From contig JAJPHB010000077.1 of the NCBI GenBank assembly GCA_021325525.1, positions 1 through 64,000 of the forward strand: 64,000 nucleotides of DNA. The letters are read 5' to 3'. How positions within the stretch are numbered: the first letter of the stretch is position 1; each line of letters starts with the position of its first letter. This DNA comes from Alphaproteobacteria bacterium (GTDB lineage: Bacteria; Pseudomonadota; Alphaproteobacteria; ATCC43930; CGMCC-115725). The position numbers and the translations under genes are program-made. Below, one piece after another: positions 32,537 through 48,521 of the stretch. The notes under the pieces are model-generated. The model ran no database searches. It worked only from the letters and a program-made list of their open reading frames with translations, and was not told the origin of the DNA.

Positions 32537-32555
32537 GGGGCCAGCTCACGAACGT

Positions 32556-32619: not shown

Positions 32620-35048
32620 AATTCTGGCGAGCGCTGATACTTCCGCGCCGGCGTGTTGACTACCGCGGCGAGCGGCGCCGCGGCGAAGGCGGCGCGGCGG
32701 CGCTCGTCGGCGGCGGGCTCGTAGAGCGTCGTGCGGAGGAAAGGCCGGCGGCCCGAGGATTCGATCATCGCCTCCATGCGCTGCGGCGACATCTCCTCGC
32801 CGTGGATGGCGCCCGCCGAGCGGGTGATCGTCTCGTTCATGAGGGTGCCGCCGAGGTCGTTGACGCCGGCATCGAGGCAGGCCGCGACGCCCCGCGGTCC
32901 GAGCTTGACCCAAGAGGCCTGGATGTTGGCGACATGCGGATGGAGCGCGAGGCGCGCCACCGCATGCATCAGTACGCATTCGCGGAAACTGGGCCCGCGG
33001 CGGGCGCGTCCCTTCAGATAGATCGGCGCCTCCATATGGACGAAGGGCAGCGGGATGAACTCCGTAAAGCCGCCTGTCTTCATCTGAAGCGCGCGGATGC
33101 GGAGGAGGTGGCGCGCCCAATGCACCGGCCGCTCGACATGGCCGAACATGATGGTCGCCGTGCTGCGCAGGCCGAGCGCATGCGCCGCTTCCATGACGGC
33201 GAACCATTCCGCCGTCGTGATCTTGTCGGGGCAGATGATGCGCCTTACCTCGTCGTCGAGAATCTCGGCCGCGGTGCCGGGCAGCGTCCCGAGGCCCGCC
33301 TCGCGCAGCGCCAGCAGGAAATCCGAAACGCTCAGGCCGATCGTCGCCGCGCCCTGCGAGACTTCGAGGGCGGTGAAGGCATGGACATGGATGTCGGGTG
33401 CGGCCGCCTTCACGGCGCGGCAGACCTCGAGATATGTCCGGCCGGTATAGTCCGGATGGATGCCGCCCTGCATGCAGACTTCGGTGGCGCCGCGCGCCCA
33501 GGCTTCGCGCGTCCGCCGCTTCACCTCCTCGAGGTCGAGCGCATAGGGCCGGCCGCGCAGGTTCTCGCTGAGCTTGCCCTTGGAAAAAGCGCAGAACTGG
33601 CAGCGGTAGTAGCAGACATTGGTGTAGTTGATGTTGCGCGTGACGACATAGCTGACGCGGTCGCCCTTGACGGCGGCGCGCAGCTCGTCGGCGGCGGCGC
33701 AGACCGCGGTGAAGTCCGGCCCGCGCGCGGCGAAGAGGCCGACGATCGCGGCCTCGTCCAGCGTCTCGCCGCGCTGCGCCCGCGCGAGGATCGCGCCGAG
33801 CGTCCCGTCGATGCGGCTCGGGCGCGGCGCGGCGATGAGGGCGAGCTCGCGCTCGGGCACGGGATCGGAGGCGCCGGGCGACCACGGATCGGGGCGGGCG
33901 AGGCCATCGGCGTCGATCGCGCGCAGCACTGCCGGGCGAAGCGCCGGGGCGAGCCAGCGCTCGGGGGCGAGGGCGTAGGCAGGATAGATCGCGAGGCGCT
34001 GCTCGAGCTCCTTGCCGGCCGCATTGGTCGCGCGCTCCAGCGCAGCGAGCTGCGGCCAGGGCGCTTCGGGATTGACATGGTCGGGCGTCACCGGCGAGAC
34101 GCCGCCCCAATCATTGATGCCGGCCGCGATCAGCGAGGCGAGGGCGCCCGGCTGAAGATTGGGCGGCGCCTGGATGTTCATGGCGCCGCCGAGGACGAGC
34201 CGGGCCACGGCAATCGTCCAGAGATGATCGTCGAGGCCGGGCTCCGCCGCGTCCGCCATGCGCGTCCCAGGCTTTGCGCGGAAATTCTGGATGATGATTT
34301 CCTGGAGATGCGCGTGCTCGTCGTGGAGGGCGCGCAGCGCCAGCAGCGCCTCGATGCGCTCGCGCCGCGTCTCGCCGATGCCGATGAGGATGCCGGAGGT
34401 GAAGGGCACCGCGGCTTCGCCCGCGAGGCGGATCGTCTCGAGGCGCCGCGCCGGGCACTTGTCGGGCGAGCCGAAATGCGGGCCGCCGCGCTCCGAGAGC
34501 CGCTCGGCGCTCGTCTCCAGCATCAGCCCTTGCGACACCGAGACGGCGCGGAGCGCCGCGATGTCGGCGGCGGCGAGCACGCCCGGATTGGCATGCGGCA
34601 GCAGCCCGGTTTCGGTGAAGACGAGCTGCGCCATCGCCGCGAGATAGGCGATGGTGCTCGGATGGCCCAACGCTTCGAGCTCGCGCCGCGCCGCCGCGTA
34701 GCGCAGCTCCGGCTTGTCGCCCAAGGTGAAGAGCGCCTCGCGGCAGCCGGCGGCGGCGCCGGCGCGCGCGATCGCCACCACCTCCTCGGGCGTCATGTAG
34801 ACGCGCTCGCCGCGCCGCGGCGGATGGGCAAAGGTGCAATAGTGGCAAACGTCGCGACAGAGCTGGGTCAGCGGGATGAAGACCTTGCGCGAATAGGTGA
34901 CGATTCGGCCGTGATGCGCATCGCGCCGCGCCGCCGCCGCCGCCATGAGGGCGGGGAGGTCGTCGCTCTCGGCAAGGCGCAGCGCCTCTTCGGCCGAGAG
35001 CGGACGGCGCTCCGCGGCGCGCAAGAGGTCCAGCAGAGCACCTGTCAT
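32592..35048 (-). CDS. fbiC: FO synthase, fused CofG-CofH (FbiC)
   Basis: Bifunctional radical-SAM enzyme (818 residues) that makes the deazaflavin FO, the chromophore of coenzyme F420, from tyrosine and 5-amino-6-ribitylaminouracil. The N-terminal CofG domain has the 4Fe-4S motif CRDVCHYC (Cys64, 68, 71); the C-terminal CofH domain has CYYRCQFC (Cys479, 483, 486). The fused form is that of actinobacterial FbiC; archaea use two proteins. Translation starts at ATG 35048, following GGAGAGGG. The last residues (PRPLAGER) are encoded by a REP palindrome, suggesting that an element landed at the 3' end. It is the last gene of the F420 operon, 25 bases after cofC. Confidence 0.94.
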   Translation of the reverse strand: MTGALLDLLRAAERRPLSAEEALRLAESDDLPALMAAAAARRDAHHGRIVTYSRKVFIPLTQLCRDVCHYCTFAHPPRRGERVYMTPEEVVAIARAGAAAGCREALFTLGDKPELRYAAARRELEALGHPSTIAYLAAMAQLVFTETGLLPHANPGVLAAADIAALRAVSVSQGLMLETSAERLSERGGPHFGSPDKCPARRLETIRLAGEAAVPFTSGILIGIGETRRERIEALLALRALHDEHAHLQEIIIQNFRAKPGTRMADAAEPGLDDHLWTIAVARLVLGGAMNIQAPPNLQPGALASLIAAGINDWGGVSPVTPDHVNPEAPWPQLAALERATNAAGKELEQRLAIYPAYALAPERWLAPALRPAVLRAIDADGLARPDPWSPGASDPVPERELALIAAPRPSRIDGTLGAILARAQRGETLDEAAIVGLFAARGPDFTAVCAAADELRAAVKGDRVSYVVTRNINYTNVCYYRCQFCAFSKGKLSENLRGRPYALDLEEVKRRTREAWARGATEVCMQGGIHPDYTGRTYLEVCRAVKAAAPDIHVHAFTALEVSQGAATIGLSVSDFLLALREAGLGTLPGTAAEILDDEVRRIICPDKITTAEWFAVMEAAHALGLRSTATIMFGHVERPVHWARHLLRIRALQMKTGGFTEFIPLPFVHMEAPIYLKGRARRGPSFRECVLMHAVARLALHPHVANIQASWVKLGPRGVAACLDAGVNDLGGTLMNETITRSAGAIHGEEMSPQRMEAMIESSGRRPFLRTTLYEPAADERRRAAFAAAPLAAVVNTPARKYQRSPEFPRPLAGER

Positions 35049-35073
35049 CCTATGCACCCTCTCCGCTTCGCGT

Positions 35074-35769
35074 TCAGGAGGCGTGGCCGGGCGCGGCCAG
35101 GCGAGCCTTCGCAAGCCGCGCGGCAACGCCGCAGTCTTGGAGAAAGACGTAGCTCCGCGCCGGCGATGGACGAGTGAGGAACGCGGCGATGTCTTCGGGC
35201 CGGTCGAGATCGAGCCCGATGCCGGGAAGGCGGAGGATCAGAGGCTCGATGCCGCGACGGAGGGCCGCCTCCTGGTGACGGAAGAAGCTGCGCGTTCCGA
35301 AGGCGAGCGGGATCGCACCGACGGGAGCCAATGCCACGGCGTTCGAGCCCATATCCGCAAGCGCTGGCGCCAGGGTGACAGAGGGGGCGGGCCGCATCGC
35401 CGTCAGGACCTCGGCGAATTCCGCGGCGCTTGCCAAAGGAATGTCGGCGGGGACCGCGAGCATGCCTTCGGCGCCGGCCGCCGCGAGTTGCGCCGCAGCG
35501 GCCGTCACCGCCGCGGTCGGTCCGTCATGCCGCAGATCGGTCATGAGCCGGGCGTCGAGGCGCCGCGCCGTCGCCGCCAGCTCGGCGTCGCGAGTGACGA
35601 CGAGGAGGCCGGCCAACCCCGGCACGGCGGCAAGCGCGCCGAGCACGTCCTCGAGCATGGCGCAGGCAAGGGCCTGCCGCTCGGCAAGGCTCAAGAGACC
35701 GGCGAGGCGCTGCTTTGCCGCCGAGAGATCCTTCGCCGGCACGACGGCCCAGATGCCTCGCCCTGTCAT
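35074..35769 (-). CDS. cofC: CofC/FbiD guanylyltransferase of F420 synthesis
   Basis: 231-residue nucleotidyltransferase that activates a three-carbon phospho-acid (2-phospholactate, phosphoenolpyruvate or 3-phosphoglycerate, depending on the organism) with GTP for transfer to FO. VPAKDLSAAKQRLAGLLSLAER is the hallmark N-terminus; VPADIPLASAAEF and LDRPEDIAAF follow the family pattern. Which substrate is used cannot be read by eye; proteobacterial-type F420 with 3-phosphoglycerate is known, so this is worth testing. It overlaps cofD by 4 bases. Confidence 0.92.
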   Translation of the reverse strand: MTGRGIWAVVPAKDLSAAKQRLAGLLSLAERQALACAMLEDVLGALAAVPGLAGLLVVTRDAELAATARRLDARLMTDLRHDGPTAAVTAAAAQLAAAGAEGMLAVPADIPLASAAEFAEVLTAMRPAPSVTLAPALADMGSNAVALAPVGAIPLAFGTRSFFRHQEAALRRGIEPLILRLPGIGLDLDRPEDIAAFLTRPSPARSYVFLQDCGVAARLAKARLAAPGHAS

Positions 35770-36761
35770 CGAGCGCCGCCTTTCCGCGCGTCCAGCCGGA
35801 TGCCGAACTCGAGCACGCGGCGGGCGAGCGCCACGCGGTCATCGAGGCTCTGCATCAGCGTCCGCGTGACCGCGACCGGAATGGGGAGGTTCCGTGCCTC
35901 GGCGGCATCGGCTTCGTCGAGGACGAGGCCGTCGATGAGGCCGTCGTAATGGCGGGCGATCGCCGCCTGCGTCTGCGGAATGCCGAGTTCGGCCATGATC
36001 TTCGCGGCCGGTCCCTTGACCGCCTTTCCGGCGATGAGCGGCGAGACCGCGACGACCGGCGCGGCGCAGTCCGCGAGCGCGGCGCGCAATCCCGGGAGGG
36101 CGAGGATGGGATCGATGCTGAGATAGGGGTTCGAGGGGCAGATGACGACGAGGGCGAGGTCGGCCGCGGCGAGCGCCGACAGCAGCGCCGGATTGGGGGG
36201 CGCGCTCTCGGCGCCGTCGAAGCGGATCCGCCGCACGGCGGGGCCGCAGCGCAGGCGCACGAAATAGTGCTGGAAGGGGAGGGTGCCCTCGGAGGTCTCA
36301 ACCATCGTCCGCACCGGCGCGTCGCTCATCGGCAGGAGCGCCGAAGCAAGGCCGAGGCGGCGCGCGAAATGCGCCGTTATCGCCGTCAGGCTCTCGCCGG
36401 CACCCAGGCGCCGCGTGCGCTCGACATGCGTCGCGAGGTCGCCGTCGCCGAGGCGGAACCAGCTCTCGCCGCCGAGCGCTTCAAGGGCGCGCATGAACGC
36501 CCAGCTCTCATCGCGGCGGCCCCAGCCGGTCTCGGGGTTGGCGAGCCCGGCGAGGGTGTACATCACCGTGTCGAGGTCGGGCGAGACGTGGAGGCCCAGA
36601 TGCTCGAAATCATCGCCGGTGTTGCAGACGAGGAGGAGATCGCCCGCCGGCAGCACCCGGTCGAGGCCGAGGGCGAGCTTCGCGCCGCCGACGCCGCCGC
36701 AGAGCGCGACAACCTTGCCGCGGCGCGCCTCCGGCGACGATTTCCGTCGCCGTTCCGACAC
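35766..36761 (-). CDS. cofD: CofD/FbiA transferase of F420 synthesis
   Basis: Transfers the activated phospho-acid from the GDP intermediate to FO, giving F420-0 or its dehydro form; 331 residues. VVALCGGVGGAKLALGLDRVL is the diagnostic nucleotide-binding N-terminus, followed by LLVCNTGDDFEHLGLHVSPDLDT and PSNPYLSIDPILALPG. The start is GTG 36761 with GGAGGG about 8 bases upstream; the annotated longer frame would overlap cofE and has no family sequence. It is followed by cofC with an ATGA overlap. Confidence 0.93.
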   Translation of the reverse strand: MSERRRKSSPEARRGKVVALCGGVGGAKLALGLDRVLPAGDLLLVCNTGDDFEHLGLHVSPDLDTVMYTLAGLANPETGWGRRDESWAFMRALEALGGESWFRLGDGDLATHVERTRRLGAGESLTAITAHFARRLGLASALLPMSDAPVRTMVETSEGTLPFQHYFVRLRCGPAVRRIRFDGAESAPPNPALLSALAAADLALVVICPSNPYLSIDPILALPGLRAALADCAAPVVAVSPLIAGKAVKGPAAKIMAELGIPQTQAAIARHYDGLIDGLVLDEADAAEARNLPIPVAVTRTLMQSLDDRVALARRVLEFGIRLDARKGGAR

Positions 36762-36784
36762 CGCGCTCCCTCCGCCCTCGGCGC

Positions 36785-37558
36785 TCACCGGAAGAGGTCG
36801 GTCTCTTTGGGGCGGATGAGGGCGCGCGCCGGGCGCTCGGGCCTTGCGCCCCAATCGACGCCGCGCACGAGCACGGCCGGCCGGCCCTCCGCCGCCTGGC
36901 CCATGACGAGCGAAGCGGCGGCGGCGATCTCGTCGGCGAGCGCGATCTGCGTCACGCGGAGAGGACGGCCGAAGAGATCGGGCTCGCCCACCATATCGGC
37001 GAGCGCCGGCAGGCCGGAGGCGCCGAGCGCGACGCCGACGACGCCGTTCCGCCAGGCGCGGCCGAAGCTGTCATTGATGAGGACGGCGAGCGCGACGCCG
37101 AAATGCGCTTCGAGGCGCTGCCGCAGCTGGGCGCAGGTTCCGTCCGGGTCGCGCGGCAGCAGCAGCACGCGGCCGTCGCCCGAGGGATGCTCGATATTCG
37201 ACTGGTCGACGCCGGCATTCGCCATGACGAAGCCGAGGCGATGCGCGGCGATCAGGATGTCGCGGCGATAGCGCACGATCTCATCGGATTCGCCGAGGAT
37301 GATCTCGACGAGGCGCGGATCCTTTCCCGTCTCCTCGGCGAGCCGGCGGGCGCGGGGCGAGGGGCTGACATCGGCGAGATCGACATAGCGACCCTCCGCC
37401 TTCGAGACGATCTTCTGCGCCAGGACGAGCACGTCGCGCTCGCGCAAGGCGAGGTCGGCGGCCGCGATCGCCGCGATCAGAATCGCCGCGAGATCGTCGC
37501 CGGGGCGGATGAGCGGCACGCCCGGCACGGCGATCAGGCTGACCGTTGTTGCCGCCAT
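36785..37558 (-). CDS. cofE: Coenzyme F420-0:L-glutamate ligase (CofE)
   Basis: GTP-dependent ligase adding one or more gamma-linked glutamates to F420-0; 257 residues. VLVLAQKIVSKAEGRYVDL, the VMANAGVDQSN segment, VLINDSFGRAWRNGVVGVALG and the metal-binding acidic residues in this region are CofE hallmarks. It is the single-domain form: the nitroreductase-like C-terminal domain present in mycobacterial FbiB is absent, but a gene for that domain alone lies at 41947-42651. It sits 15 bases after the F420 reductase gene. Confidence 0.93.
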   Translation of the reverse strand: MAATTVSLIAVPGVPLIRPGDDLAAILIAAIAAADLALRERDVLVLAQKIVSKAEGRYVDLADVSPSPRARRLAEETGKDPRLVEIILGESDEIVRYRRDILIAAHRLGFVMANAGVDQSNIEHPSGDGRVLLLPRDPDGTCAQLRQRLEAHFGVALAVLINDSFGRAWRNGVVGVALGASGLPALADMVGEPDLFGRPLRVTQIALADEIAAAASLVMGQAAEGRPAVLVRGVDWGARPERPARALIRPKETDLFR

Positions 37559-37573
37559 CGCAAACTCCGACCG

Positions 37574-38236
37574 TCACTCGGCCGCGGCGCCGAAGGACCC
37601 CGTGATGCGAATGCCGGCGCCCTCGACCTTGTAGCGCCTGTTAATGCCGATCAGCACCGAGGTCAACGCCTCGGCGGCGACGGAATTCGCCAGCGGCCCG
37701 GCATCGATGCCGCGCAGACCGATGGCGCGGGCGAGGGCGATGACCTGCTCGCACGCCGCCCGGTCATTGCCGCAGACGAGCACGTCGCAATCGATGGGGC
37801 TGCCCGTCCGCAGCTTCTGCGCCGCCACGTTGTGAAAGGCGGAGACGACGCGCACGCCGTCGCCGAGGAGGCGCTGCGCCGCCACCGCCGCCGAGCCTTC
37901 GGGCGGAAGCTGAACCGTCGCCACCTTGGGCGGGACAAGCGGCACGGTCGTGTCGACGACGATCTTTCCGGCAACGGCGGCGCGGATCGCTGCGAGCGTC
38001 GCGCTGTGGCTGGCGAAAGGCACCGTCAGGATGACGACGTCGCCGGCGCGCGCCGCCGCCGCGTTGTCGAGACCCGTCACCGTCGCCGCGATCGCCGCGG
38101 CGGCGGCCTCGGCCTTCGCGGCCTCGCGCGAGCCGATGATCGTCGGATAGCCGGCCGCCGCAAAGCGCGTCGCGAGGCCGGTGCCGAGCGCGCCGGTGCC
38201 GCCGATTACGGCGATGCTCGGAAGGCAAGGGGTCAT
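37574..38236 (-). CDS. npdG: NADPH-dependent F420 reductase (Fno/NpdG)
   Basis: 220-residue F420H2:NADP+ oxidoreductase that supplies reduced F420 from NADPH. The N-terminal Rossmann motif is IAVIGGTGALGTGLATRFA, with the NADP-phosphate-contacting IIGSREAAKAEA; VVSAFHNVAAQKL and AGPLANSVAAEALT complete the family pattern. It is the first gene of the operon npdG-cofE-cofD-cofC-fbiC, so reduction and synthesis of the cofactor are encoded together. A REP doublet separates it from pxpA on the same strand, so it may be read from the pxpA promoter or from its own unseen one. Confidence 0.92.
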   Translation of the reverse strand: MTPCLPSIAVIGGTGALGTGLATRFAAAGYPTIIGSREAAKAEAAAAAIAATVTGLDNAAAARAGDVVILTVPFASHSATLAAIRAAVAGKIVVDTTVPLVPPKVATVQLPPEGSAAVAAQRLLGDGVRVVSAFHNVAAQKLRTGSPIDCDVLVCGNDRAACEQVIALARAIGLRGIDAGPLANSVAAEALTSVLIGINRRYKVEGAGIRITGSFGAAAE

Positions 38237-38300
38237 GGGAAGGGGTCTCGTGTCCGCAACAATGATGCTGCATCTCCTCGTTGCCCGACCGTCGCAATCT

Positions 38301-38415
38301 CCCTCTCCCGCTTGCGGGAGAGGGTAGGGGTGAGGGCCGAGTCACTGTGGTGCGGAGGTTTGAATCCTGCTGCGGCGCCCCTCACCCTGCCCTCTCGCCG
38401 CAGGCGGGGAGAGGG
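38301..38415. repeat. REP doublet in inverted orientation (REPIN-like), copies 5 and 6
   Basis: Unit 1 has an 11-bp stem CCCTCTCCCGC/GCGGGAGAGGG (38301-38324) followed by TAGGGGTGAGGG. Unit 2, inverted, has a stem at 38390-38415 with one mismatch, preceded by CCCCTCACCCTG. The two units share the stem and the flanking GGGTGAGGG tail and face each other across about 65 bases, as in REPIN/BIME elements. It fills the pxpA-npdG gap. Confidence 0.75.
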
Positions 38416-38464
38416 TTCTGTGAAGGCGCATGCGGGAGAAGGAATTTTGAGGACCGCCAGCATC

Positions 38465-39241
38465 CTAGCCGAGCTTCATCTTCGGCAGCGGCAGCACCTC
38501 GACGCCGGCGGCTTCGAGACCTTGCCGCACGGCGCGCGCCGCCAGCACCGCGGTCGGCTCGTCGCCATGGACGCAGAGGCTGTCGATCTTGCGCGGCAGG
38601 CGCTTGCCGTGGCGCGAGACGATCTCCTCCTCGACGATCATGTGGACGACGCGGTTCTTGATCTCCTCGGGATCGTGCAGCACGGCGCCCGGGATCTTGC
38701 GCGAGGTGAGATTGCCGTCATCGTCGTAGAGGCGGTCGCAGAAGCCCTCGCGCGCCAGCGGCAGGTCGAGCTTCACCGCCGCCGCCTCCATCTGCGAGCC
38801 GGCGAGGGCGACGTAGATGATCGAGCGATCGACAGTCTTGATGGCGCGGCCGATGGCAAGGGCGATCTCGATCTCCTCCGCCGCGATGTTGTTGAGCGCG
38901 CCATGCGGCTTCAGATGCGTCACCCTCTCGCCGGCATAGGCCGCCATCCCCTGCAGGGCTCCGATCTGGTAGGCCACCATATATTCGAGATCGCGCGGAT
39001 TCATGTCGATGCGCCGGCGGCCGAAGCCCCAGAGATCGTTGAAGCCGGGATGGGCGCCGATGCTGACGCCCTTCTCCTTGGCGCGCGTCACCAGATGGTG
39101 CATGACGTTGGGGTCGCCGGCATGGAAGCCGCAGGCGATGCTGGCCGAGCCGATGATGTCGAGCAGGGCATCGTCATTGCCGATCTTCCAGGCGCCGAAG
39201 CCCTCGCCCATATCCGCGTTGAGATTGACCTGCCGCGCCAT
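38465..39241 (-). CDS. pxpA: 5-oxoprolinase subunit A (LamB/YcsF family)
   Basis: 258-residue subunit of the prokaryotic ATP-dependent 5-oxoprolinase PxpABC, which opens 5-oxoproline (pyroglutamate) to glutamate. NLNADMGEGFGAWKIGNDDALL is the family N-terminus; ASIACGFHAGDPNVM, GVSIGAHPGFNDLWGFGRR and SLCVHGDEPTAV follow. It starts at ATG 39241 after GGGAGGCGGGAAGG and diverges from pxpB/pxpC; operator site B lies between them. Some LamB/YcsF proteins act on other lactams or carboxylate substrates, so a different cyclic amide is possible in this context. Confidence 0.9.
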   Translation of the reverse strand: MARQVNLNADMGEGFGAWKIGNDDALLDIIGSASIACGFHAGDPNVMHHLVTRAKEKGVSIGAHPGFNDLWGFGRRRIDMNPRDLEYMVAYQIGALQGMAAYAGERVTHLKPHGALNNIAAEEIEIALAIGRAIKTVDRSIIYVALAGSQMEAAAVKLDLPLAREGFCDRLYDDDGNLTSRKIPGAVLHDPEEIKNRVVHMIVEEEIVSRHGKRLPRKIDSLCVHGDEPTAVLAARAVRQGLEAAGVEVLPLPKMKLG

Positions 39242-39315
39242 CCTTCCCGCCTCCCGCCGGCGCCGAACCCGCGCAAACCCCTGTTCCGCGCGCTGGTTTC
39301 CGGGCCGTCCATATG

Positions 39316-39331
39316 GTACTAAGTTCCAGAC
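39316..39331 (+). promoter_or_regulatory. Shared operator motif, site B
   Basis: Core GTACTAAGTTCCAGAC, followed by GATGATAAGATAG (39332-39344), nearly identical to the segment after site A. It lies 74 bases upstream of pxpA and about 85-115 bases upstream of pxpB in the divergent region, so one regulator could control both directions, including gntR at the end of the pxpBC-gntR run (autoregulation). Confidence 0.6.
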
Positions 39332-39430
39332 GATGATAAGATAGTCCTGCTCGGCGCGGCAACTGGTTTGTCGGTCCCTCCACCGGCCCTCCGTCCGCCG
39401 CGCCGTGGTCCACAGAATCGAGGTCCGGGC

Positions 39431-40153
39431 TTGCGGGTCAGGTTTCTCCCGAGCGCAGACAGCGCGATCGCGGTCGAGTTCTCCGACCGGATCGACCGGG
39501 CCGTGAGCGAGCAGGTGCTGGCCCTCGCCGCCCGTGTCGACCGGGCGCAGCTTGCCGGCGTGGTCGAGACGGTGCCGACCTTCCGCTCGCTCATGATTCA
39601 CTACGATCCGCTGCGCATCGCAGCGAGCGAACTCGTCGCCGCGGTGGAGACCCTGCTTGCCGGTGCGGCCGAGCGCGCGCCGTCGCGGCGGCTCTGGCAC
39701 GTGCCGGTCTGCTACGAAGGGGAACTCGCCCCGGATCTCGCCGAGGTGGCGGCGCGGACGGGGCTCGCACCCGACGAGGTCATCCGCCTCCATGCTGGCC
39801 GACGCTACCACGTCTATATGATCGGCTTCCTGCCGGGTTATCCCTATATGGGTGATCTGCCGGAGGCGCTGGTGCTGCCGCGCCGCGTCGATCCGCGCCT
39901 GCGCGTCCCGCCGGGCTCGGTCGCCATCGCGACGAGCATGACGGCGATCTATCCGCATGAGAGCCCGGGCGGGTGGCATCTCATCGGCGCGACGCCGATC
40001 CGTCTTTTCGACGACGCCTGGCCGCAGCCGGCGCTTCTGGCGCCGGGCGATGCGGTGCAGTTCGAGCCGATCGACCGGGCCGCCTTCGCCGAGCTGGCGG
40101 CGGCGGTGACGCGCGGCGACTACGAGGTGCCCCACGAAAGGCTCGCCGCATGA
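39431..40153 (+). CDS. pxpB: 5-oxoprolinase subunit B (KipI family)
   Basis: 240-residue KipI-like subunit of PxpABC. VRFLPSADSAIAVEFSDRID starts the domain and HVYMIGFLPGYPYMGDLPE plus RVPPGSVAIATSMTAIYPHESPGGW form the conserved C-terminal block. No ATG fits; a TTG at 39431 begins at the family N-terminus with GAGG 8 bases upstream, and an earlier TTG at 39368 is less likely. The stop overlaps the pxpC start (ATGA), so translation is coupled. Confidence 0.87.
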   Translation: MRVRFLPSADSAIAVEFSDRIDRAVSEQVLALAARVDRAQLAGVVETVPTFRSLMIHYDPLRIAASELVAAVETLLAGAAERAPSRRLWHVPVCYEGELAPDLAEVAARTGLAPDEVIRLHAGRRYHVYMIGFLPGYPYMGDLPEALVLPRRVDPRLRVPPGSVAIATSMTAIYPHESPGGWHLIGATPIRLFDDAWPQPALLAPGDAVQFEPIDRAAFAELAAAVTRGDYEVPHERLAA

Positions 40154-41181
40154 GGCGGGCGCTCAAAGTCGTGGCGCCCGGCCTCCACACGACGGTTCAG
40201 GATCTCGGCCGCTACGGCTACCAAGCGGCAGGCGTGCCGGTATCGGGCGCTCTCGACGCCGAGTGCTTTCGCCTGGCGAACCGGCTCGTCGGCAATCCCG
40301 ACAACACCGCCGCCCTCGAAATCCTCTATCAGGGCCCGACCCTCGAAGTCGCGGCCGACCGCGTTCTCGTCGGCCTCGCCGGCGGCGATGCCGAGATCGA
40401 GCGGCTGGGAGACCGGCGCCGCGTGCTCGGCGGCTGGCGCAGCGTCGAACTGCGCCGCGGCGACAGGTTCCGCATCGGCCGGCTCGGCACCGCCGCCTGC
40501 TGCTACCTGGCGGTGGCGGGCGGCATTGCCGTCGAGCCCTGTCTCGGCAGCGCCTCGACCTTCGTCCGCGGCGGCTTCGGCGGCTTCGCCGGGCGGGCGC
40601 TGCGCGAAGGCGACCTCCTGCCGCTCGCCGAGGATGCGGAGGCGATGGCGGAGCTGCGCCTCAAATCACCGCCGGATCCGGGGCTCGACCGGATCATCCG
40701 AATCGTTCTCGGGCCGCAGCAGGATCACTTCACCGAGGGCGCCATCGAGACGCTGCTCGGCGCCGAATTCGCCGTCTCAAAGAGCGCCGACCGCATGGGG
40801 CTGCGGCTCGACGGGCCGCGCCTCCAGCATCGCGACGGCTACAACATTGTCTCGGACGGCATCGCCACCGGCGCCATCCAGGTGCCGGGGTCGGGTCAGC
40901 CGATCCTGCTGCTCGCCGACCATCAGACGACGGGCGGCTATCCGAAGATCGCGACGGTCGTCTCGGCGGATCTCCCGGTCGTCGGCCGGCGCCGTCCCGG
41001 CGATCGCATCCGCTTCCGCGCGGTCGAGGTGGCCGAGGCCGAGCAATTGCGCCGCGACAGCGAGGCGGCGCTCGCGGCCTTGACGGCAGCGATGAGCGCC
41101 GCGGCCGCGGCAGAGGAGATCGATCACGACCTCCTCCACCAGCTCAACCTTATCAGCGGCGTCGTCGCCGGAGACGAATAG
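40150..41181 (+). CDS. pxpC: 5-oxoprolinase subunit C (KipA family, biotin-dependent carboxylase-like)
   Basis: 343-residue KipA/AHS2-domain subunit of PxpABC. KVVAPGLHTTVQDLGRYGYQ, GVPVSGALDAECFRLANRLVGN, YLAVAGGI, RMGLRLDGP and SDGIATGAIQVPGSGQPILLLADHQTTGGYPKIA are all classical. The ATG at 40150 overlaps the pxpB stop; the longer frame is out of register with the family. gntR begins 26 bases downstream, so pxpB, pxpC and the regulator appear to share a transcript. Confidence 0.9.
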   Translation: MRRALKVVAPGLHTTVQDLGRYGYQAAGVPVSGALDAECFRLANRLVGNPDNTAALEILYQGPTLEVAADRVLVGLAGGDAEIERLGDRRRVLGGWRSVELRRGDRFRIGRLGTAACCYLAVAGGIAVEPCLGSASTFVRGGFGGFAGRALREGDLLPLAEDAEAMAELRLKSPPDPGLDRIIRIVLGPQQDHFTEGAIETLLGAEFAVSKSADRMGLRLDGPRLQHRDGYNIVSDGIATGAIQVPGSGQPILLLADHQTTGGYPKIATVVSADLPVVGRRRPGDRIRFRAVEVAEAEQLRRDSEAALAALTAAMSAAAAAEEIDHDLLHQLNLISGVVAGDE

Positions 41182-41207
41182 GCGGCAGAAGCAGGGAACG
41201 GGCAGGC

Positions 41208-41942
41208 ATGACGAAATTGGCGAAGACCTTCCGCTTGAGCCAGATTCCGCTCTACATCCAGGTCGCGACGATGCTGCGCCGGCGCATCGAGGAAGGGCAG
41301 TGGGCGCCGGGCGACAAGATCTCGACGATCGAGGAGCTGCAGGAGGAGTTCGGGGTAGCGCGGGTCACGATCCGGCAGGCGGTCGAGCTCCTCGAGAAGG
41401 AGCAGCTCGTCTCGCGCCAGCAGGGCAAGGGCACCTTCGTCGCGCAGACGCTCGAAGACCGGCGCTGGCTCAAGCTCGATACGAGCTGGGCCTCGCTCGT
41501 CGGCACGATCAAGGACAATGTCCCGAAATTCCTGCCGGTCGGCGCGCCGCCGCGGCCGCCGCGCCTGCGGCCGGGGGAGGGGCGGCCGGCGGCGGACTAC
41601 GTCTATCTCCGCAGCGTGCAATCGCGCGGCAATCGCGCCTATTCCGTCGTCGGCTGCCATCTCGCCAAGGCGATCTACGACCGCGACCCGGCGGCCTTCC
41701 GCAAGCATCCGGCCCTGCCGATCGTCGCCGCGATGAAGGACGTGGCGATCGCCTCGGCGCATCAGACGCTGGTCATCGGCAGCGCCGATCCCGAGACGGC
41801 GCGGCTCCTCAAACTGCCGCTCAACGCGCCGACGGCGGAAGCGCATTGCGTCGTCATCGACCGCGAGGGCGTCGCGCTCTACGTCGCCGACATCATCTAC
41901 CGCGGCGACTGCATCGCCTTCGAATTCGACATGAAGATCTGA
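41208..41942 (+). CDS. GntR family regulator, HutC/UTRA subgroup
   Basis: 244-residue transcription factor. Residues about 14-80 form the winged helix (IPLYIQVATMLRRRIEEGQW, FGVARVTIRQAVELLEKEQLVSRQQGKGTFVA); the remainder is a UTRA ligand-binding domain ending YVADIIYRGDCIAFEFDMKI. HutC-type repressors release DNA when they bind a pathway metabolite. The start is ATG 41208, 26 bases after pxpC. Its likely operators are sites A, B and C, found near 28127, 39316 and 42666; their palindromic core GTCCTAA-N2-TTAGGAC fits the dimeric binding of this family. It is convergent with the FbiB-C-like gene, 4 bases apart. Confidence 0.9.
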   Translation: MTKLAKTFRLSQIPLYIQVATMLRRRIEEGQWAPGDKISTIEELQEEFGVARVTIRQAVELLEKEQLVSRQQGKGTFVAQTLEDRRWLKLDTSWASLVGTIKDNVPKFLPVGAPPRPPRLRPGEGRPAADYVYLRSVQSRGNRAYSVVGCHLAKAIYDRDPAAFRKHPALPIVAAMKDVAIASAHQTLVIGSADPETARLLKLPLNAPTAEAHCVVIDREGVALYVADIIYRGDCIAFEFDMKI

Positions 41943-41946
41943 GCGC

Positions 41947-42651
41947 TCACCCGCGATCCGGTCTCCACAAGACGTTTTCGAGGGCGCGGCGGCTCGGCGG
42001 CTTGCCCGGCTCCGCGGGCGCGCCGAGCGTGACGAGCGCCTGCGGCTGCCACCCTTTCGGCAGGTCGAGCGCCTCCGCGACCGTCTGCGGGCAGAAGAGC
42101 GGGGCGCACATCCAGCAGGCGCCGAGGCCCTCCGCATGGGCGGCGAGCAGCAGGTTCTGCGTCGCCATCGCCGTGCTCTGCACCGCCATCATGTGCTCGG
42201 CGCGCTGGCGCTTGTCGGGGTAGCGGTCCATATCCGCCATATCGAGGGCGATGATGATGACGCAGGGCGCCTCGGTGATGCGGGCGTAGGAGCGCGCCAC
42301 GTCACGCTCGACGGCCTCGCGCGGATCGCCGTCCGCGAGGCGGTCGGCGCGCAGCCTCTCGCCCATGGCTCGCGACAGGCGGTCCTTCTCGGCAAAGGCG
42401 GTGAGCACCGCGAAGCGCCAGGGCTGCCGGTTATGCGCGGAGGGCGCCCAGCAGGCCGCCGTCAGGATGCGGCGCAGCACCGCCGCCGGAACGGGAGCCG
42501 GACCGTAGCGCCGGATCGAGCGGCGTCCCGACACCAGCTCGTACCAGGGCCGCGCCCGCGCCGGTTCCTCCTCTTCCGTGCCGTCCAGGCTCCCCTGCCG
42601 ATCCGGCGTGCCGCCCGCGCCGGGCGTGCTGCTCGTTGACGCTGTGATCAT
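41947..42651 (-). CDS. Stand-alone FbiB C-terminal-domain homologue (putative dehydro-F420-0 reductase)
   Basis: 234-residue FMN-dependent nitroreductase-fold protein. It looks specifically like the C-terminal domain of mycobacterial FbiB: RRSIRRYGPAPVPAAVLRRI, then DRYPDKRQRAEHMMAVQST (FbiB has a D/YPD..R..AEH.M pattern), EGLGACWMCAPLFCPQTV, LDLPKGWQPQALVTLG and EPGKP before the C-terminus. In mycobacteria that domain reduces dehydro-F420-0 with FMNH2. CofE here lacks it, so the two proteins together would equal FbiB. The start at ATG 42651 excludes an N-terminal extension that would read through operator site C; the gene may be leaderless. A generic nitroreductase is the alternative. Confidence 0.78.
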   Translation of the reverse strand: MITASTSSTPGAGGTPDRQGSLDGTEEEEPARARPWYELVSGRRSIRRYGPAPVPAAVLRRILTAACWAPSAHNRQPWRFAVLTAFAEKDRLSRAMGERLRADRLADGDPREAVERDVARSYARITEAPCVIIIALDMADMDRYPDKRQRAEHMMAVQSTAMATQNLLLAAHAEGLGACWMCAPLFCPQTVAEALDLPKGWQPQALVTLGAPAEPGKPPSRRALENVLWRPDRG

Positions 42652-42665
42652 CCGCTTATATCGTC

Positions 42666-42681
42666 GTCCTAAAGTTAGGAC
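42666..42681 (-). promoter_or_regulatory. Shared operator motif, site C (perfect palindrome)
   Basis: GTCCTAAAGTTAGGAC is a perfect 7-bp inverted repeat with a 2-base spacer. Read on the minus strand it is followed by GACGATATAAGCG, matching the segments after sites A and B and likely containing the -10 box for the FbiB-C-like gene, whose ATG lies only 15 bases away. The plus-strand ABC transporter operon begins 153 bases to the other side, so both could be controlled. Confidence 0.62.
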
Positions 42682-42833
42682 ATCCCGCGCTACGCGGCGT
42701 CGCCCGCGGGCGGAGGATGCGAGGGGAAGCGACGGGCCGCAACCGATTTCGGACGATTGTTCGGCCCGGGCTGCCGTTTCGGATGGAGGCTTGCGCGATC
42801 CGCGAGTCCGGCACCGAGAGAGGGAGGAAGGCA

Positions 42834-43868
42834 ATGACGAGATGGCGATTGACGGCGTTTGCCGCGGCCGCGCTGCTGGCCGTAGCGGCCGTTCCGGCCC
42901 GCGCCCAGGACAAGCTGGTCGTCGATATCTGGGGCGGCAATTGGCGCGACGGCGCCAACGAGGCGATCGCCAAGGAATTCACGAAACGCACCGGGATGCC
43001 GGTCGAGTTCATCACCGGCGGCACGATCGACCGCCTGACCAAGGCGAAGATCAATAAGGGCCATCCCGAGTCCGATGTCACGATCACGACGAGCCATGTC
43101 GGCTACCTCTATTTCTCGGACGGCTTGTTCGAGAAGCTCGACATGAGCAAGATCCCGAACGCCAAGGACCTGTTCCCAGTCGCGATCCGCAGCCCCTACA
43201 CGATCGGACTCTATTCCTACGTCTATACGCCCGCCTTCCGCACCGATTTGATGCCGAAGGGCTACAAGATCACCTCCTGGCGCGATCTGTGGGCGCCCGA
43301 GGTCAAAGGCAAGCTCGGCCTACCGGATTTCGATCCGAGCCATATCATCATCGTCTCGGCGATCCTGTCCGGCGGCAGCGCCGCCAATTGGAAGGTCGGC
43401 ATCCCGCTCCTTGAAAAGCTGAAGCCCAACATCAAGACCTTCTACCAGTCCGATGCGACGAGCCAGGACCTGATGAAGAGCGGCGAGACGCCGGTCCAGG
43501 TCCTGCTTTCGATCAACGGTTTCCACCAGATCTCGCAGGGGATCCCGATCACCATCGCCATTCCCAAGGAAGGCGCCGTCGTCGGCATCGACGCCATCGG
43601 CATCACGCAGGGAACCAAGCACAGCGCCGCCGCGCACGAATTCATCAACGTCGCGCTCGACGCGGCGGTCCAGGCGAAGCTCTGCGATCTCTACCGCTGC
43701 GGGCCGATGAACATGCATGCGAAGATCGACCCGGCGCTGGCGAAGCTGCCCGGCGTCTTCACGACGCCCGAGCAGTGGAAGTCGGAGGCGATCGTCGTCG
43801 ATGACGAGACGCGGGCGAAGCTCCTGCCGGTCTGGAAGGACTGGTTCACCGAGAACATGATGCATTGA
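42834..43868 (+). CDS. ABC substrate-binding protein (PotD/spermidine-putrescine type)
   Basis: Periplasmic binding protein of 344 residues with a clear signal peptide (WRLTAFAAAALLAVAAVPARA, cleavage before QDKL). Mature sequence starts VVDIWGGNWRDGANEAIAKEF, typical of the extracellular solute-binding family 1 group that includes polyamine, opine and thiamine binders. The GAGGGAGGAAGG before ATG 42834 fixes the start. It heads a four-gene importer operon. The substrate is unknown; the neighbours (oxoprolinase, amidase remnant, PLP enzyme) suggest a nitrogenous organic compound. Confidence 0.88.
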   Translation: MTRWRLTAFAAAALLAVAAVPARAQDKLVVDIWGGNWRDGANEAIAKEFTKRTGMPVEFITGGTIDRLTKAKINKGHPESDVTITTSHVGYLYFSDGLFEKLDMSKIPNAKDLFPVAIRSPYTIGLYSYVYTPAFRTDLMPKGYKITSWRDLWAPEVKGKLGLPDFDPSHIIIVSAILSGGSAANWKVGIPLLEKLKPNIKTFYQSDATSQDLMKSGETPVQVLLSINGFHQISQGIPITIAIPKEGAVVGIDAIGITQGTKHSAAAHEFINVALDAAVQAKLCDLYRCGPMNMHAKIDPALAKLPGVFTTPEQWKSEAIVVDDETRAKLLPVWKDWFTENMMH

Positions 43869-43914
43869 CCGCGGCGACGCGAGGGCGCGGGACGAGGCGG
43901 GCAGAGGCGCGATC

Positions 43915-44784
43915 TTGAAGCACAGAGTGCCGCGGCGGCGTCCGTTCTTCCTCGCCTTCCTGCTGCCCTCGCTGCTCGCCGCGGGGCTCTTCCTCGCCGC
44001 CCTCGGCGACGTGCTGCAATACAGCTTCCGCACCTTCATCCCGGGCTCGCTCGATGTCGGCGGCTTCACTCTCGAGAACTTCCTGCGCATCGGCCGCCCG
44101 ATCTATCTCTCGGTGCTGCTCGACACCGTCACCATCAGCGTTCTCACCGCACTCTTCACGCTGCTTCTCAGCTATCCCGTGGCCTATGCCCTCGTCCGCG
44201 CGCGCCGCGATTGGGTCCGCACCCTTCTCATCATCCTCGCGATCACGCCGCTCTTCACCGGCGAGATCGTGCGGACCTATGCCTGGATCCTGGTGCTTGG
44301 CTCGAACGGCTTCGTCAACAGCCTCCTCAAGGATGCGGGCCTCATCACGGCGCCGCTGTCGCTGCTCTATACCCGCTTCGGAGTGACGGTCGCGCTCGTC
44401 CAGTTCTCGATGCCGGTCATGATCATCCTGCTGGCGACCGCGATCAGCCATGTCGACCGCAACTGCGAGCGCGCGGCGGCCAATCTCGGGGCGCCGCCGC
44501 TCATGGTGTTCTGGCGGGTGACGCTGCCGCTGACCATGCCGGGCGTCATCTCCGGCACCATCGTCATCTTCGCCTGGACGATGAGCGCCTTCTCGACGCC
44601 GCAGCTCATCGGCGGCGGCAAGGTGCTGATGATCTCGAACCTCGTCTATCTGCAAGGGCTGTCGACCTTCAACTTCCCCTTCGCCGCCGTTCTCAGCCTG
44701 CTGGCCCTCCTCGTCGCCATGGGATCCCTCGGCCTCATCCGTCCGGCGATCCGGCGGCTCGAACGGCGGGTGGCGCTCCATTGA
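43915..44784 (+). CDS. ABC transporter permease (PotB-like)
   Basis: 289-residue inner-membrane permease with about six hydrophobic segments and the coupling motif NCERAAANLGAPPLMVFWRVTLPLTMPG (EAA-loop type). TTG at 43915 is the only suitable start, after AGAGG. It follows the binding protein by 46 bases and overlaps the second permease by 4 bases. PotB/PotC pairs form a heterodimeric channel. Confidence 0.86.
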   Translation: MKHRVPRRRPFFLAFLLPSLLAAGLFLAALGDVLQYSFRTFIPGSLDVGGFTLENFLRIGRPIYLSVLLDTVTISVLTALFTLLLSYPVAYALVRARRDWVRTLLIILAITPLFTGEIVRTYAWILVLGSNGFVNSLLKDAGLITAPLSLLYTRFGVTVALVQFSMPVMIILLATAISHVDRNCERAAANLGAPPLMVFWRVTLPLTMPGVISGTIVIFAWTMSAFSTPQLIGGGKVLMISNLVYLQGLSTFNFPFAAVLSLLALLVAMGSLGLIRPAIRRLERRVALH

Positions 44785-45596
44785 GCCCGCGCCTCGCAGC
44801 GCGGCTCGGCAGCGGGCTCTTCTGGGCCGCCGTCGCCCTCATCCTCGCCTATATGACGATCCCCGCGCTCGTCGTCCTCATGACGTCGCTCAGCCCGTCG
44901 GAGCTCCTCGAATTCCCGCCTTCGGGCCTCTCCCTCAAATGGTATGCGCGGGCGGTCTCCTACCCCGACTTCCAGGCCGCCTTCGCCAACGGCCTCATCG
45001 TCACCGCCTTCGCCTCCACATGCGCGCTCGCGGTCGGCTCGGCCTTCGCCTATCTCATCGACCGCTACGTGTTTCCGGGGCGCGCGGCGCTCGAAGCGGT
45101 TCTGTCCTCGCCGCTCATCGTCCCGCATTTCACGACCGGCTTCGGCTTCCTCCTGCTCGGAGCCGGCCTCGGCATCGGGCGGAGCTACCTCCTCGTCATC
45201 CTCGCCCATGTCATGCTGGTTCTGCCTTTCGTCATCCGCAGCGTCTATGTGAGCCTCCGCAACCTCGATCCCCATCTCGAACGGGCCGCGGCCAATCTCG
45301 GAGCGTCGCCCTGGCGGGTCCTGAGCCGCGTCACCTTGCCGCTGCTGCTGCCCGGCATGGCGGGCGGCTGGCTTGTCGCCGCCATCCTCTCGCTGACGGA
45401 ATTCACCGCCTCGCTCTACGTCACGGCGGAGCGGACGCAGACCCTGCCCGTCGCCATGTACACCTACATCCGCGAATATACGGATCCGACGATTGCCGCC
45501 ATTGCGGCGCTCCTCATCCTCGGCACGACGGCGCTCATCTTCGTCGCGAACCGCTATCTCGGCCTTCGCCGCATTCTGTCGATCGATGCGCACTGA
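44781..45596 (+). CDS. ABC transporter permease (PotC-like)
   Basis: 271-residue partner permease with about six hydrophobic segments and the coupling motif HLERAAANLGASPWRVLSRVTLPLLLPG. It probably starts at TTG 44781 inside the TTGA overlap with the first permease; a much longer frame is antisense-like and rejected. Together with the PotB-like and PotA-like proteins it completes the importer. Confidence 0.86.
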   Translation: MSPRLAARLGSGLFWAAVALILAYMTIPALVVLMTSLSPSELLEFPPSGLSLKWYARAVSYPDFQAAFANGLIVTAFASTCALAVGSAFAYLIDRYVFPGRAALEAVLSSPLIVPHFTTGFGFLLLGAGLGIGRSYLLVILAHVMLVLPFVIRSVYVSLRNLDPHLERAAANLGASPWRVLSRVTLPLLLPGMAGGWLVAAILSLTEFTASLYVTAERTQTLPVAMYTYIREYTDPTIAAIAALLILGTTALIFVANRYLGLRRILSIDAH

Positions 45597-45606
45597 GGAC
45601 GAGGCA

Positions 45607-46725
45607 ATGGGGCAGGGAGCGGCGGCCGGCACGCCGCCCTTCGCTGCCGAAACCGCGGTCGAGCTCGTCGGCGTCGGCAAGAGCTTCGGGCCGGTCACGG
45701 CGGTGCGCGAGCTCAGCCTCGCCATCCGCCGCGGCGAGGTCCTGACGCTGCTGGGACCGAGCGGCTGCGGCAAGACGACGCTCCTCAACATGATCGCCGG
45801 ATTCGAGGAGCCGAGCGCCGGCCGGATCCTCATCGACGGCCGCGACGTGACCGAGGTGCCGCCTTATCTGCGCGACACCGGCATGGTCTTTCAGAGCTAC
45901 GCGCTCTTTCCGCATATGGACGTCTTCGAGAACGTCGCCTTCGGCCTGCGCATGCGCAAGCTGCCGAAGGCGAAGATCGCGGCCGAGGTCATGCGCGCCC
46001 TCGAGATGGTGAAGCTCGGAGGCCTCGAACGGCGGCGCGTCCGCCAGCTTTCGGGCGGGCAGCAGCAGCGCGTCGCTCTGGCGCGCGCCATCGTCCTCCG
46101 CCCGAAGGTGCTGCTTCTCGACGAGCCGCTCTCCGCCCTCGACAAGAACCTCCGCGCGCAGATGCAGGTCGAGCTCAAGGAGCTGCACGAGCGGACGCGC
46201 CTCACTACGCTCTTCGTCACCCATGATCAGGGCGAGGCGCTCAGCCTCTCCGACCGCATCGTCGTCATGAGCCGCGGCGAGATTCAGCAGATCGCCGCGC
46301 CCATCGAGCTCTACCGCCATCCCGCCAACAGCTTCGTCGCCTCCTTCATCGGCGAGATCAACCGCCTGCCACCGGCGCGCTGCCGGCTCAGCGGCGGCGA
46401 GATCGTCTTTTCGCTGGCGGGGATCGAATTGACCGCGGCGCGACGCGACGACCTCGCCCTCGGCGACGGTCAGCAGGTGCATCTCTTCGTCCGTCCGGAG
46501 CATCTCGCCGTCGCCGCGGAGGCGGCTGGCGGGCGTAACCGGATCGCCTGCCGGGTCGTCACGCATGTCTATCAGGGGACGCACACGCTGACGCGGGTCG
46601 AGGCTGGGGCGTTGGGCGTGCTCCAGCTCCGCGTTCCGGGCGGCGCTGTCATCGAGCGCGCGCCGCCCGGCAGCGAGATAGGGGTGGAGATCAATCTCGA
46701 CGAGGCGGTGGCGCTGCCCGACTGA
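45607..46725 (+). CDS. ABC transporter ATP-binding protein (PotA-like)
   Basis: 372-residue ATPase. Walker A GPSGCGKTTLLNMIAGFE, Q-loop MVFQSYALFPHMDVFENV, signature LSGGQQQRVALARAIV, Walker B VLLLDEPLSALD and H-loop LFVTHDQGEALSLSD are complete, and the C-terminal about 100 residues form a TOBE domain (VRPEHLAVAAEA). The start ATG 45607 lies 10 bases after the second permease. It energises the polyamine/opine-type importer; substrate unknown. Confidence 0.92.
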   Translation: MGQGAAAGTPPFAAETAVELVGVGKSFGPVTAVRELSLAIRRGEVLTLLGPSGCGKTTLLNMIAGFEEPSAGRILIDGRDVTEVPPYLRDTGMVFQSYALFPHMDVFENVAFGLRMRKLPKAKIAAEVMRALEMVKLGGLERRRVRQLSGGQQQRVALARAIVLRPKVLLLDEPLSALDKNLRAQMQVELKELHERTRLTTLFVTHDQGEALSLSDRIVVMSRGEIQQIAAPIELYRHPANSFVASFIGEINRLPPARCRLSGGEIVFSLAGIELTAARRDDLALGDGQQVHLFVRPEHLAVAAEAAGGRNRIACRVVTHVYQGTHTLTRVEAGALGVLQLRVPGGAVIERAPPGSEIGVEINLDEAVALPD

Positions 46726-46796
46726 GAGGGGTCGAGCCTCGCGCGCTGGCCGCCGATGAGGCAATCTGCAGAGCAGCATCGCCAAGGAGCCGCAAG

Positions 46797-48521
46797 ATGG
46801 GACGGAAATCGGTTCGGGTGGAGAGCGTCGCCGAAGCCTATCTGAGGCTGCTGGCCGCGCGCGGCGTTGACTATCTCTTCGCCAATGCCGGCACCGATTT
46901 CGCTCCGATCGTCGAAGCCTTGGCGAAGGCGGAGGCGAACGGCACCCCGGCGCCGAAGCCGATGCTGGCGGTCCACGAGAACCTGGCGATGTCGATGGCG
47001 CATGGTTACGCGATGGTCTCGGGCCGCACGCCGGCGGTGATGGTCCATGTCAGCGTCGGCACGGCCAATGCTCTGTGCGGCGCGGTCAACGCGGCGCGCG
47101 AGAACGTCCCCATTCTCTTCACCGCGGGCCGCACGCCGCTGACGGAGGAGGGCCTCGTCGGCGCACGCGACGCCTACATCCACTGGGGCCAGGAGATGTA
47201 CGACCAGGCGGCGATGGTGCGCGAGCTCGTCAAATGGGATTACGAGCTGCGCAATGCCGAGCAGCTCGAAACCGTGATCGACCGCGCGCTCGGCCTCGCC
47301 CGCAGCGAGCCGCAGGGCCCCGTCTATCTGACCCTGCCGCGCGAAGTGCTGGCGGCGCCGATGGGCGAGCTGCGCTATGACGACCCCTCGCGCCGGATCG
47401 CGGCGACGGCGCCCTGCGCCGACCGCGCCGCGCTCGCCGAGGCGGCGGACATCCTGGCGGGCGCCGAGAATCCGCTCATCGTCACGACGAGCGTCGGCCG
47501 CGATCCCGCCGCCGTGCCTCTGCTCGCCGCCATCGCCGAGCGCTTCGCCTTACCGGTCGCACAGCTCTCGCCGCGCCACCTTTCGATTCCGTCCGACCAT
47601 CCGATGCAGCTCGGCTTCGATCCCAACGCGCTCGTCGCCGAAGCCGATGCCATCCTCGCGCTCGAATCGGACGTACCGTGGATTCCGAGCCGAGTCTCGC
47701 CGCGCGAGGCGGCGAAGGTCATTCATCTCGGCCTCGACCCGCTCTTTCAGAGATACCCCATCCGCGGCTTCCGCTGCGACCTCGCCATCACCGCGGCGGC
47801 GGGGAGCGCGCTGGACGAGCTCGCCGGCCTCCTCGCCGAGCGTGCCGATCCGGCGCGCATCGCGGCGCGCCGCGCGCGCATCGCCAGCCGCCGCGCGGCG
47901 CAGCGCAACGAGTGGCAAAGCCTGCTCCAACGGGTGCGCGGGGCACGGCCGATTCACCCCGCCTGGGTCAGCCATTGCGTCGGCGAGGCGAAGAGCGAAG
48001 ACGCGATCGTCGTCAACGAATATACGCTGATGCCGCAGCACTGCGCCTTCACGCGGCCCGGCACCTATTTCGGCTCGAGCGCGGCCTCCGGGCTCGGCTG
48101 GGGCTTCGGCGCCGCGCTCGGCGCCAAATTGGCGGCGCCCGACCGCCTCGTCATCGCGACGTTGGGCGACGGCGCCTACCTCTTCGCCAATCCCGTCGCC
48201 GGACATCACGCGGCGCGGCTGCACGACCTGCCGATCCTCGTCGTCGTCTTCAACAACGCCATGTGGAACGCCGTCCGCCGCGCGACGCTGACCATGTATC
48301 CCGACGGCGGAACGGCGCGCAGCAACCGGCCGCCCTTCATCCGCCTCGACGAGCTCCCCGCCTTCGAGCAGGTCTGCGCCGCCGCCGGCGGTTATGGCGA
48401 GCGGGTCGAGGACCCGGCCGAGCTGCCGGCGGCCCTGACGCGAGCGCTCGCGGCCGTGACGCAGGAGCGCCGCCAGGCGCTCCTCAACGTCGTTTGCGAA
48501 GCGCCCGGCGGTCCGCTCTGA
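46797..48521 (+). CDS. Thiamine diphosphate-dependent enzyme (acetolactate synthase/benzoylformate decarboxylase superfamily)
   Basis: 574-residue ThDP enzyme with the three usual domains: N-terminal Pyr domain (FANAGTDFAPIVEAL, LAVHENLAMSMAHGYAMVSG with the cofactor-activating glutamate), a middle domain, and the C-terminal PP domain (GDGAYLFANPVAGHHAA...VVFNNAMWNAV, the GDG-N motif binding Mg and ThDP). The substrate is unknown; such proteins decarboxylate 2-oxoacids or condense them. It follows the importer by 71 bases and a truncated amidase follows it, so it probably belongs to the same catabolic unit. Confidence 0.86.
   Translation: MGRKSVRVESVAEAYLRLLAARGVDYLFANAGTDFAPIVEALAKAEANGTPAPKPMLAVHENLAMSMAHGYAMVSGRTPAVMVHVSVGTANALCGAVNAARENVPILFTAGRTPLTEEGLVGARDAYIHWGQEMYDQAAMVRELVKWDYELRNAEQLETVIDRALGLARSEPQGPVYLTLPREVLAAPMGELRYDDPSRRIAATAPCADRAALAEAADILAGAENPLIVTTSVGRDPAAVPLLAAIAERFALPVAQLSPRHLSIPSDHPMQLGFDPNALVAEADAILALESDVPWIPSRVSPREAAKVIHLGLDPLFQRYPIRGFRCDLAITAAAGSALDELAGLLAERADPARIAARRARIASRRAAQRNEWQSLLQRVRGARPIHPAWVSHCVGEAKSEDAIVVNEYTLMPQHCAFTRPGTYFGSSAASGLGWGFGAALGAKLAAPDRLVIATLGDGAYLFANPVAGHHAARLHDLPILVVVFNNAMWNAVRRATLTMYPDGGTARSNRPPFIRLDELPAFEQVCAAAGGYGERVEDPAELPAALTRALAAVTQERRQALLNVVCEAPGGPL

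Follow-up and report, generated by a model that had tools for sequence, protein, structure and literature searches.

We analyzed a 64-kb window (the whole stretch of 64,000 nucleotides under study, from contig JAJPHB010000077.1 of an alphaproteobacterium) that carries a set of F420 biosynthesis genes and, apart from them, a gene for a small nitroreductase. The latter is an open reading frame on the minus strand, read from 42651 to 41947, that encodes 234 amino acids. A nitroreductase domain is the sole domain of this protein, with no CofE domain, and the motifs YPDKRQRAEHMM, GLGACW, and LDLPKGWQP, quoted in a preliminary description of this DNA, are all present. Sequence, fold, and tree evidence indicate that the gene at 41947-42651 very probably encodes FbiE, a predicted stand-alone dehydro-F420-0 reductase. 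Between 38236 and 32592, the minus strand carries the F420 genes as one run, npdG-cofE-cofD-cofC-fbiC, and pxpA comes ahead of them on this strand. Their cofE (36785-37558, minus strand) is complete. It encodes a single-domain F420-0:glutamate ligase of 257 amino acids that scores 289 bits on TIGR01916 (cut-off, 181) and ends without a nitroreductase domain, as had been described.

Identity of the nitroreductase

Every sequence test that we ran points to a dehydro-F420-0 reductase. Among solved structures, the closest relative by sequence is the C-terminal domain of Mycobacterium tuberculosis FbiB (E = 8.8e-28), and the next one is 10 orders behind. We obtained an AlphaFold2 model with a mean pLDDT of 90 and low confidence over the first 15 residues. 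When the PDB was searched with this model, the top 11 matches were all FbiB C-terminal chains (TM 0.88-0.91 on target), and generic nitroreductases and BluB ranked below them. We then consider the tree, which compared the query, 23 FbiE proteins, and 5 FbiB domains with 8 sequences of BluB and other nitroreductases taken from the same family and class. It was rebuilt without the long-branch outgroups 3gfa, L003, and L073/L075, whose mutual attraction destabilized the first tree. The query, FbiE, and FbiB domains stand apart from BluB and the other nitroreductases with a branch support of 99/95, and placement among ordinary nitroreductases, which would speak against FbiE, was not seen. In M. 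tuberculosis FbiB, R337 and M372 were docked against the enolpyruvyl group (PMC6450877); in the alignment, the equivalent residues of the window protein are likewise arginine and methionine.

The M. tuberculosis domain (PDB 4xom, 4xoo, and 4xoq) thus shares with the window protein its fold, these two residues, and the motifs YPD..R..AEH.M and GLG.CW. Unlike it, the window protein is not fused to CofE, is only about 33% identical, has alanine in place of P289, and scores under the TIGR03553 cut-off. The preliminary description took the gene for one part of a split FbiB, but this has the direction wrong. Stand-alone FbiE is already named in the literature: Thermomicrobium roseum uses it, homologs occur in several predicted producers, and actinobacterial fbiB arose through fusion of cofE and fbiE (PMC8498797). 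Since the form published for Thermomicrobium and others is the stand-alone one and the fusion is an actinobacterial derivative, the FbiE of the window was never fused. The gene is ordinary in kind, stand-alone versions being known outside Actinobacteria.

The T. roseum FbiE (Braga et al. 2020, as reported in PMC8498797) also has a stand-alone nitroreductase fold and linkage to cofC and cofD. The T. roseum homolog that we compared (WP_012643075, unconfirmed as the assayed FbiE) is 50% identical to the window protein over the domain. It lies two genes past cofC in a cofD-cofC run, whereas the window gene neighbors gntR and an ATP-binding cassette (ABC) transporter, 4.4 kb away from cofE. A thiamine-pyrophosphate-requiring protein is encoded near fbiE both in the window (46797-48521) and in T. 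roseum (L161, 6470-8239).

Orthologs and their linkage to F420 synthesis

The 80 nearest FbiE relatives in GTDB genomes come from Anaerolineae, other Chloroflexota, Betaproteobacteria, and Alphaproteobacteria, and the closest of all is an Anaerolineales protein (72% identity). For 59 of the 80, cofE and/or cofD lies within the fetched locus, most commonly in the order npdG-cofE-fbiE-cofD-cofC; each of the remaining 21 genomes encodes a cofE above the family cut-off. The FbiE proteins of Anaerolineae and Betaproteobacteria F420 operons are stand-alone, like that of the window, and 55-72% identical to it. Unlike the window gene, theirs are mostly found between cofE and cofD in a single operon. 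Within the window's own family, genus g6 (G006 and G026) has the ortholog as the leading gene of fbiE-fbiC-npdG-cofE-cofD-cofC, and in G305 and G384 it is just upstream of cofD. The other FbiE-bearing genomes that we found in the window's family carry the gene either inside the F420 operon or apart from it, in both cases lacking the GntR and transporter neighborhood.

FbiE is rare among alphaproteobacterial F420 producers, but where present it accompanies the pathway. In a class sample of 385 alphaproteobacteria, cofD was found in 59 and FbiE in 3, all of them cofD positive (3/59 versus 0/326 cofD-negative genomes; hand-computed Fisher p of ~0.003, or ~0.02 without the window genome). Among 61 relatives, 24 have cofE and 5 have an FbiE-scale match, again all cofE positive. 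Across the 59 loci, the 21 genomes, and the class sample, FbiE was encoded only together with F420 biosynthesis, and this linkage to F420 operons and genomes is strong evidence for a role in F420 maturation. No FbiE-scale protein was found in 56 of the 59 cofD-positive genomes. Judged by their sequences, most alphaproteobacterial F420 producers are therefore without a recognizable dehydro-F420-0 reductase.

CofC and the origin of this FbiE

Residue L92 of M. tuberculosis CofC contacts phosphoenolpyruvate (PMC8764529). The equivalent position is leucine in 54 of 58 CofC sequences from FbiE-positive genomes, and 21 of the 41 FbiE-negative sequences have His, Gln, or Tyr there versus none of the 58, counts that shared descent inflates. 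Leucine also occurs in 19 of the 41 FbiE-less sequences, so we rejected this residue as a two-way marker of FbiE. The CofC of the window has proline there and is placed by its tree among 16 FbiE-less sequences (SH-aLRT 89). Its best solved match is the 3-phosphoglycerate (3-PG) enzyme 7p97. At the position of Mrhiz S162, however, where a 3PG-F420-type enzyme is expected to have Ser or Thr, it has glycine, and this residue argues against 3PG-F420.

Because the window CofC groups with FbiE-less sequences while its FbiE is nearest to Anaerolineales, FbiE is, on the simplest view, probably a secondary addition to this pathway, acquired by transfer. The alternative is loss of FbiE in many relatives.

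Linked catabolic genes

A set of plus-strand genes at 28208-32536 encodes a pyridoxal phosphate (PLP)-fold enzyme, a coenzyme A (CoA)-transferase pair, and an F420-type LLM oxidoreductase; these linked catabolic genes probably use F420. The same gene types recur with an F420 operon, a GntR gene, and FbiE in four genomes, namely, Cupriavidus yeoncheonensis, Burkholderiaceae PBA, and two metagenome-assembled genomes (Xanthobacteraceae and Hyphomicrobiales), although these loci were reached via FbiE and its presence in them is thus selected. Alpha- and Betaproteobacteria have in common a supercluster (window 28208-41942 and L225-L234) that comprises the PLP-fold enzyme, the CoA-transferase pair, the LLM oxidoreductase, GntR, sometimes pxpABC, npdG-cofE-cofD-cofC-fbiC, and FbiE. 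In the class sample, which was not chosen via FbiE, six genomes have the LLM gene, and all six are cofD positive. Only one of them, the window's own, carries FbiE, so the module goes with F420 without requiring FbiE, and we rejected FbiE as a regular companion of the LLM gene. A literature search joining F420, 5-oxoprolinase, and luciferase-like enzymes found no such paper.

Gene layout and transcription

Reading away from fbiE toward the F420 genes, we find the gene for a GntR-family regulator with a UTRA domain (41208-41942, plus strand), pxpC-like (5-oxoprolinase/urea amidolyase family; 40150-41181, plus), pxpB (39368-40153, plus), pxpA (5-oxoprolinase subunit, start approximate; 38465-39241, minus), and npdG/fno (NADPH-dependent F420 reductase, 208 bits against a cut-off of 150; 37574-38236, minus). 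Beyond cofE, all on the minus strand, lie cofD (start approximate; 35766-36767), cofC (35074-35769), and fbiC, a CofG-CofH fusion and FO synthase (1150 bits against a cut-off of 1018; 32592-35126). On the other side of fbiE, an ABC transporter with a substrate-binding protein, two permeases, and an ATPase is encoded at 42834-46725 on the plus strand. Because npdG and pxpA on the minus strand and pxpB, pxpC, and gntR on the plus strand intervene, fbiE is outside the cofE operon. The layout makes it a transcription unit of its own, convergent with gntR and divergent from the transporter, in agreement with the separate transcription proposed earlier.

A -10-like hexamer, TATAAG (42655-42660, minus strand), that may serve as the fbiE promoter stands 3 nt upstream of the ATG. 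This ATG has no Shine-Dalgarno sequence at normal spacing, and ahead of codon 40 the frame offers no further ATG, GTG, or TTG. A leaderless mRNA is plausible because the hexamer is so close to the ATG and no other in-frame start precedes codon 40. The promoter assignment may nevertheless be wrong, since standard spacing puts the start point at or just past the ATG.

The gap between fbiE and the transporter contains a perfect palindrome, GTCCTAAAGTTAGGAC (42666-42681), made of two inverted GTCCTAA half-sites and standing 14 nt before the fbiE ATG. It is a candidate GntR operator. Perfect palindromes with 7-bp arms and loops of 0-6 number 135 in the window, but AT-rich ones are rare (five entries). 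The preliminary description had supposed an operator site here and co-induction of fbiE with the catabolic genes. Part of this holds: the half-site GT(A/C)CTAA also occurs in the pxpA/pxpB promoter region, as GTACTAA (39316-39322, plus strand). The core T(A/C)CTAA is found three times in 64 kb, twice in the palindrome and once at 39317 in this intergenic region, and sharing of rare patterns this strong is seen in just 1 of 587 region pairs of matched composition, a comparison affected by our having chosen the motif after looking. A shared perfect operator, on the other hand, was rejected, because the window, even with 3 mismatches allowed, has no further copy of the palindrome, and the genome has no exact second copy but one imperfect site with 1 mismatch. 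Since the half-site was found after the fact, we see moderate support for the idea that a single regulator, in the simplest case the GntR protein, acts on the fbiE/transporter and pxpA/pxpB regions alike.

Nothing singles out fbiE as the regulated step. A single sigma-70-like promoter was found between fbiE and the transporter, TTGACG-17-TATCGT (42636-42664, plus strand; 1 found, 0.0 expected; consensus match only), and it faces the transporter genes. The palindrome begins 2 nt past it and abuts the likely start of this divergent transcript, a usual place for a repressor site, and so it fits the transporter at least as well as fbiE. Another consensus match, TTGCCG-18-TATCAT (39333-39362, minus strand), faces pxpA and the F420 genes. 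As pxpA heads the strand into npdG-cofE-cofD-cofC-fbiC, the whole F420 pathway, itself downstream of the pxpA promoter, may belong to the same regulon.

We can tentatively add a substrate-responsive switch to the FbiE assignment, as a possibility that we hold somewhat short of probable. In this switch, fbiE, the transporter, and the pxp/F420 genes would all be repressed by GntR until a substrate of catabolism, or its product, relieved the repression, and mature F420 would then rise on demand. Besides the shared half-site, the company that gntR keeps is consistent with such a switch: GntR orthologs adjoin pxpC in Cupriavidus and Burkholderiaceae PBA, where gntR accompanies pxpBC and the pxpA/pxpB gaps carry TTAG..CTAA repeats, and in locus L144 gntR adjoins fbiE. 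Against it, apart from the post hoc motif and the placement for the transporter promoter, the half-sites converge at fbiE yet diverge in the betaproteobacteria, and the half-site is not present in the upstream regions of L126 and L144. If real, regulated F420 supply probably concerns the whole pathway.

No known RNA families were found in 37000-47000. Two alphaproteobacterial relatives have a glycine riboswitch upstream of fbiE, on the strand opposite to it (L106, 9774-9860, 66.6 bits; L126, 9704-9791, 69.4 bits); its probable target is a set of glycine cleavage genes that are read away from fbiE. An extragenic palindrome, CCCTCTCCCGC..GCGGGAGAGGG, lies between pxpA and npdG (38301-38324), with a similar one near 32555, downstream of the LLM gene, and is probably a dispersed repeat.

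Discussion

The assignment of FbiE has its basis in observed homology, predicted fold, clade, the retained active-site arginine and methionine, and operon and genome linkage to F420 synthesis. Our inferences concern the reaction, phosphoenolpyruvate as the acid that this organism uses, and the regulation. CofC and CofD would make dehydro-F420-0 from phosphoenolpyruvate and FO, FbiE, predicted to depend on flavin mononucleotide, would convert it to F420-0, and the separate CofE would add the glutamates. Transcription of fbiE would be separate from that of the F420 operon and would begin in the intergenic region that fbiE shares with the ABC transporter; this region holds the candidate GntR operator.

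Several findings weigh against this picture. The position of P289 is alanine in the window protein, as it is in most FbiE proteins compared. On TIGR03553, the protein scores 139.9 bits, against a cut-off of 249.55. Since the T. roseum protein also fails (163.7 bits), this cut-off separates fused actinobacterial from stand-alone forms and is not a mark of function. PRK13294 is not reached either (138.4 bits; 304 needed), and with CofE encoded by a separate gene, the protein is not an FbiB. Finally, formation of dehydro-F420-0 in this organism is not assured, because its CofC groups with FbiE-less lineages and carries proline where FbiE-positive genomes have leucine.

These last points also bear on an alternative that we regard as unlikely, in which a flavin nitroreductase was recruited to another reduction in the adjoining catabolic cluster and dehydro-F420-0 is no longer, or not chiefly, its substrate. 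The gene does sit among catabolic and transport genes, most F420-making relatives are without FbiE, and the window CofC comes from a lineage otherwise without it. However, orthologs that are 55-72% identical lie in F420 operons, all carrier genomes tested encode CofE, the active-site residues are retained, and the catabolic genes do not need FbiE, since five of the six LLM-bearing genomes of the class sample are without it. A further alternative, that the protein is a BluB (5,6-dimethylbenzimidazole synthase) or one of the ordinary nitroreductases of the NfnB, RutE, or YdjA type, is hardly credible. All of these share the superfamily, and outside FbiB, BluB is the curated family with the best score. 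The 92.9 bits on TIGR02476, however, fall short of its cut-off of 150; the genome has, at other sites, genes for both a true BluB (262 bits) and a YdjA-like protein; and tree placement and family scores contradict this alternative. The earlier proposal of a dehydro-F420-0 reductase, by comparison, is borne out by the grouping of the protein with FbiE and FbiB.

A broader and rather doubtful proposal is that most alphaproteobacterial producers make F420 without FbiE, about half of these FbiE-less producers having a CofC whose L92 position is occupied by His, Gln, or Tyr, and that the window lineage added FbiE secondarily, under GntR control. Reduction of dehydro-F420-0 would then be an optional, regulated step and not a fixed one. 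What we add is a clear FbiE for an alphaproteobacterium, in contrast to the 56 of 59 producers without it. For those producers there are two options: the starting acid is 2-phospholactate or some other acid, or an unknown reductase is at work. The window organism, which combines FbiE with a CofC of an FbiE-less lineage, is a good place to test the starting acid against such a reductase.
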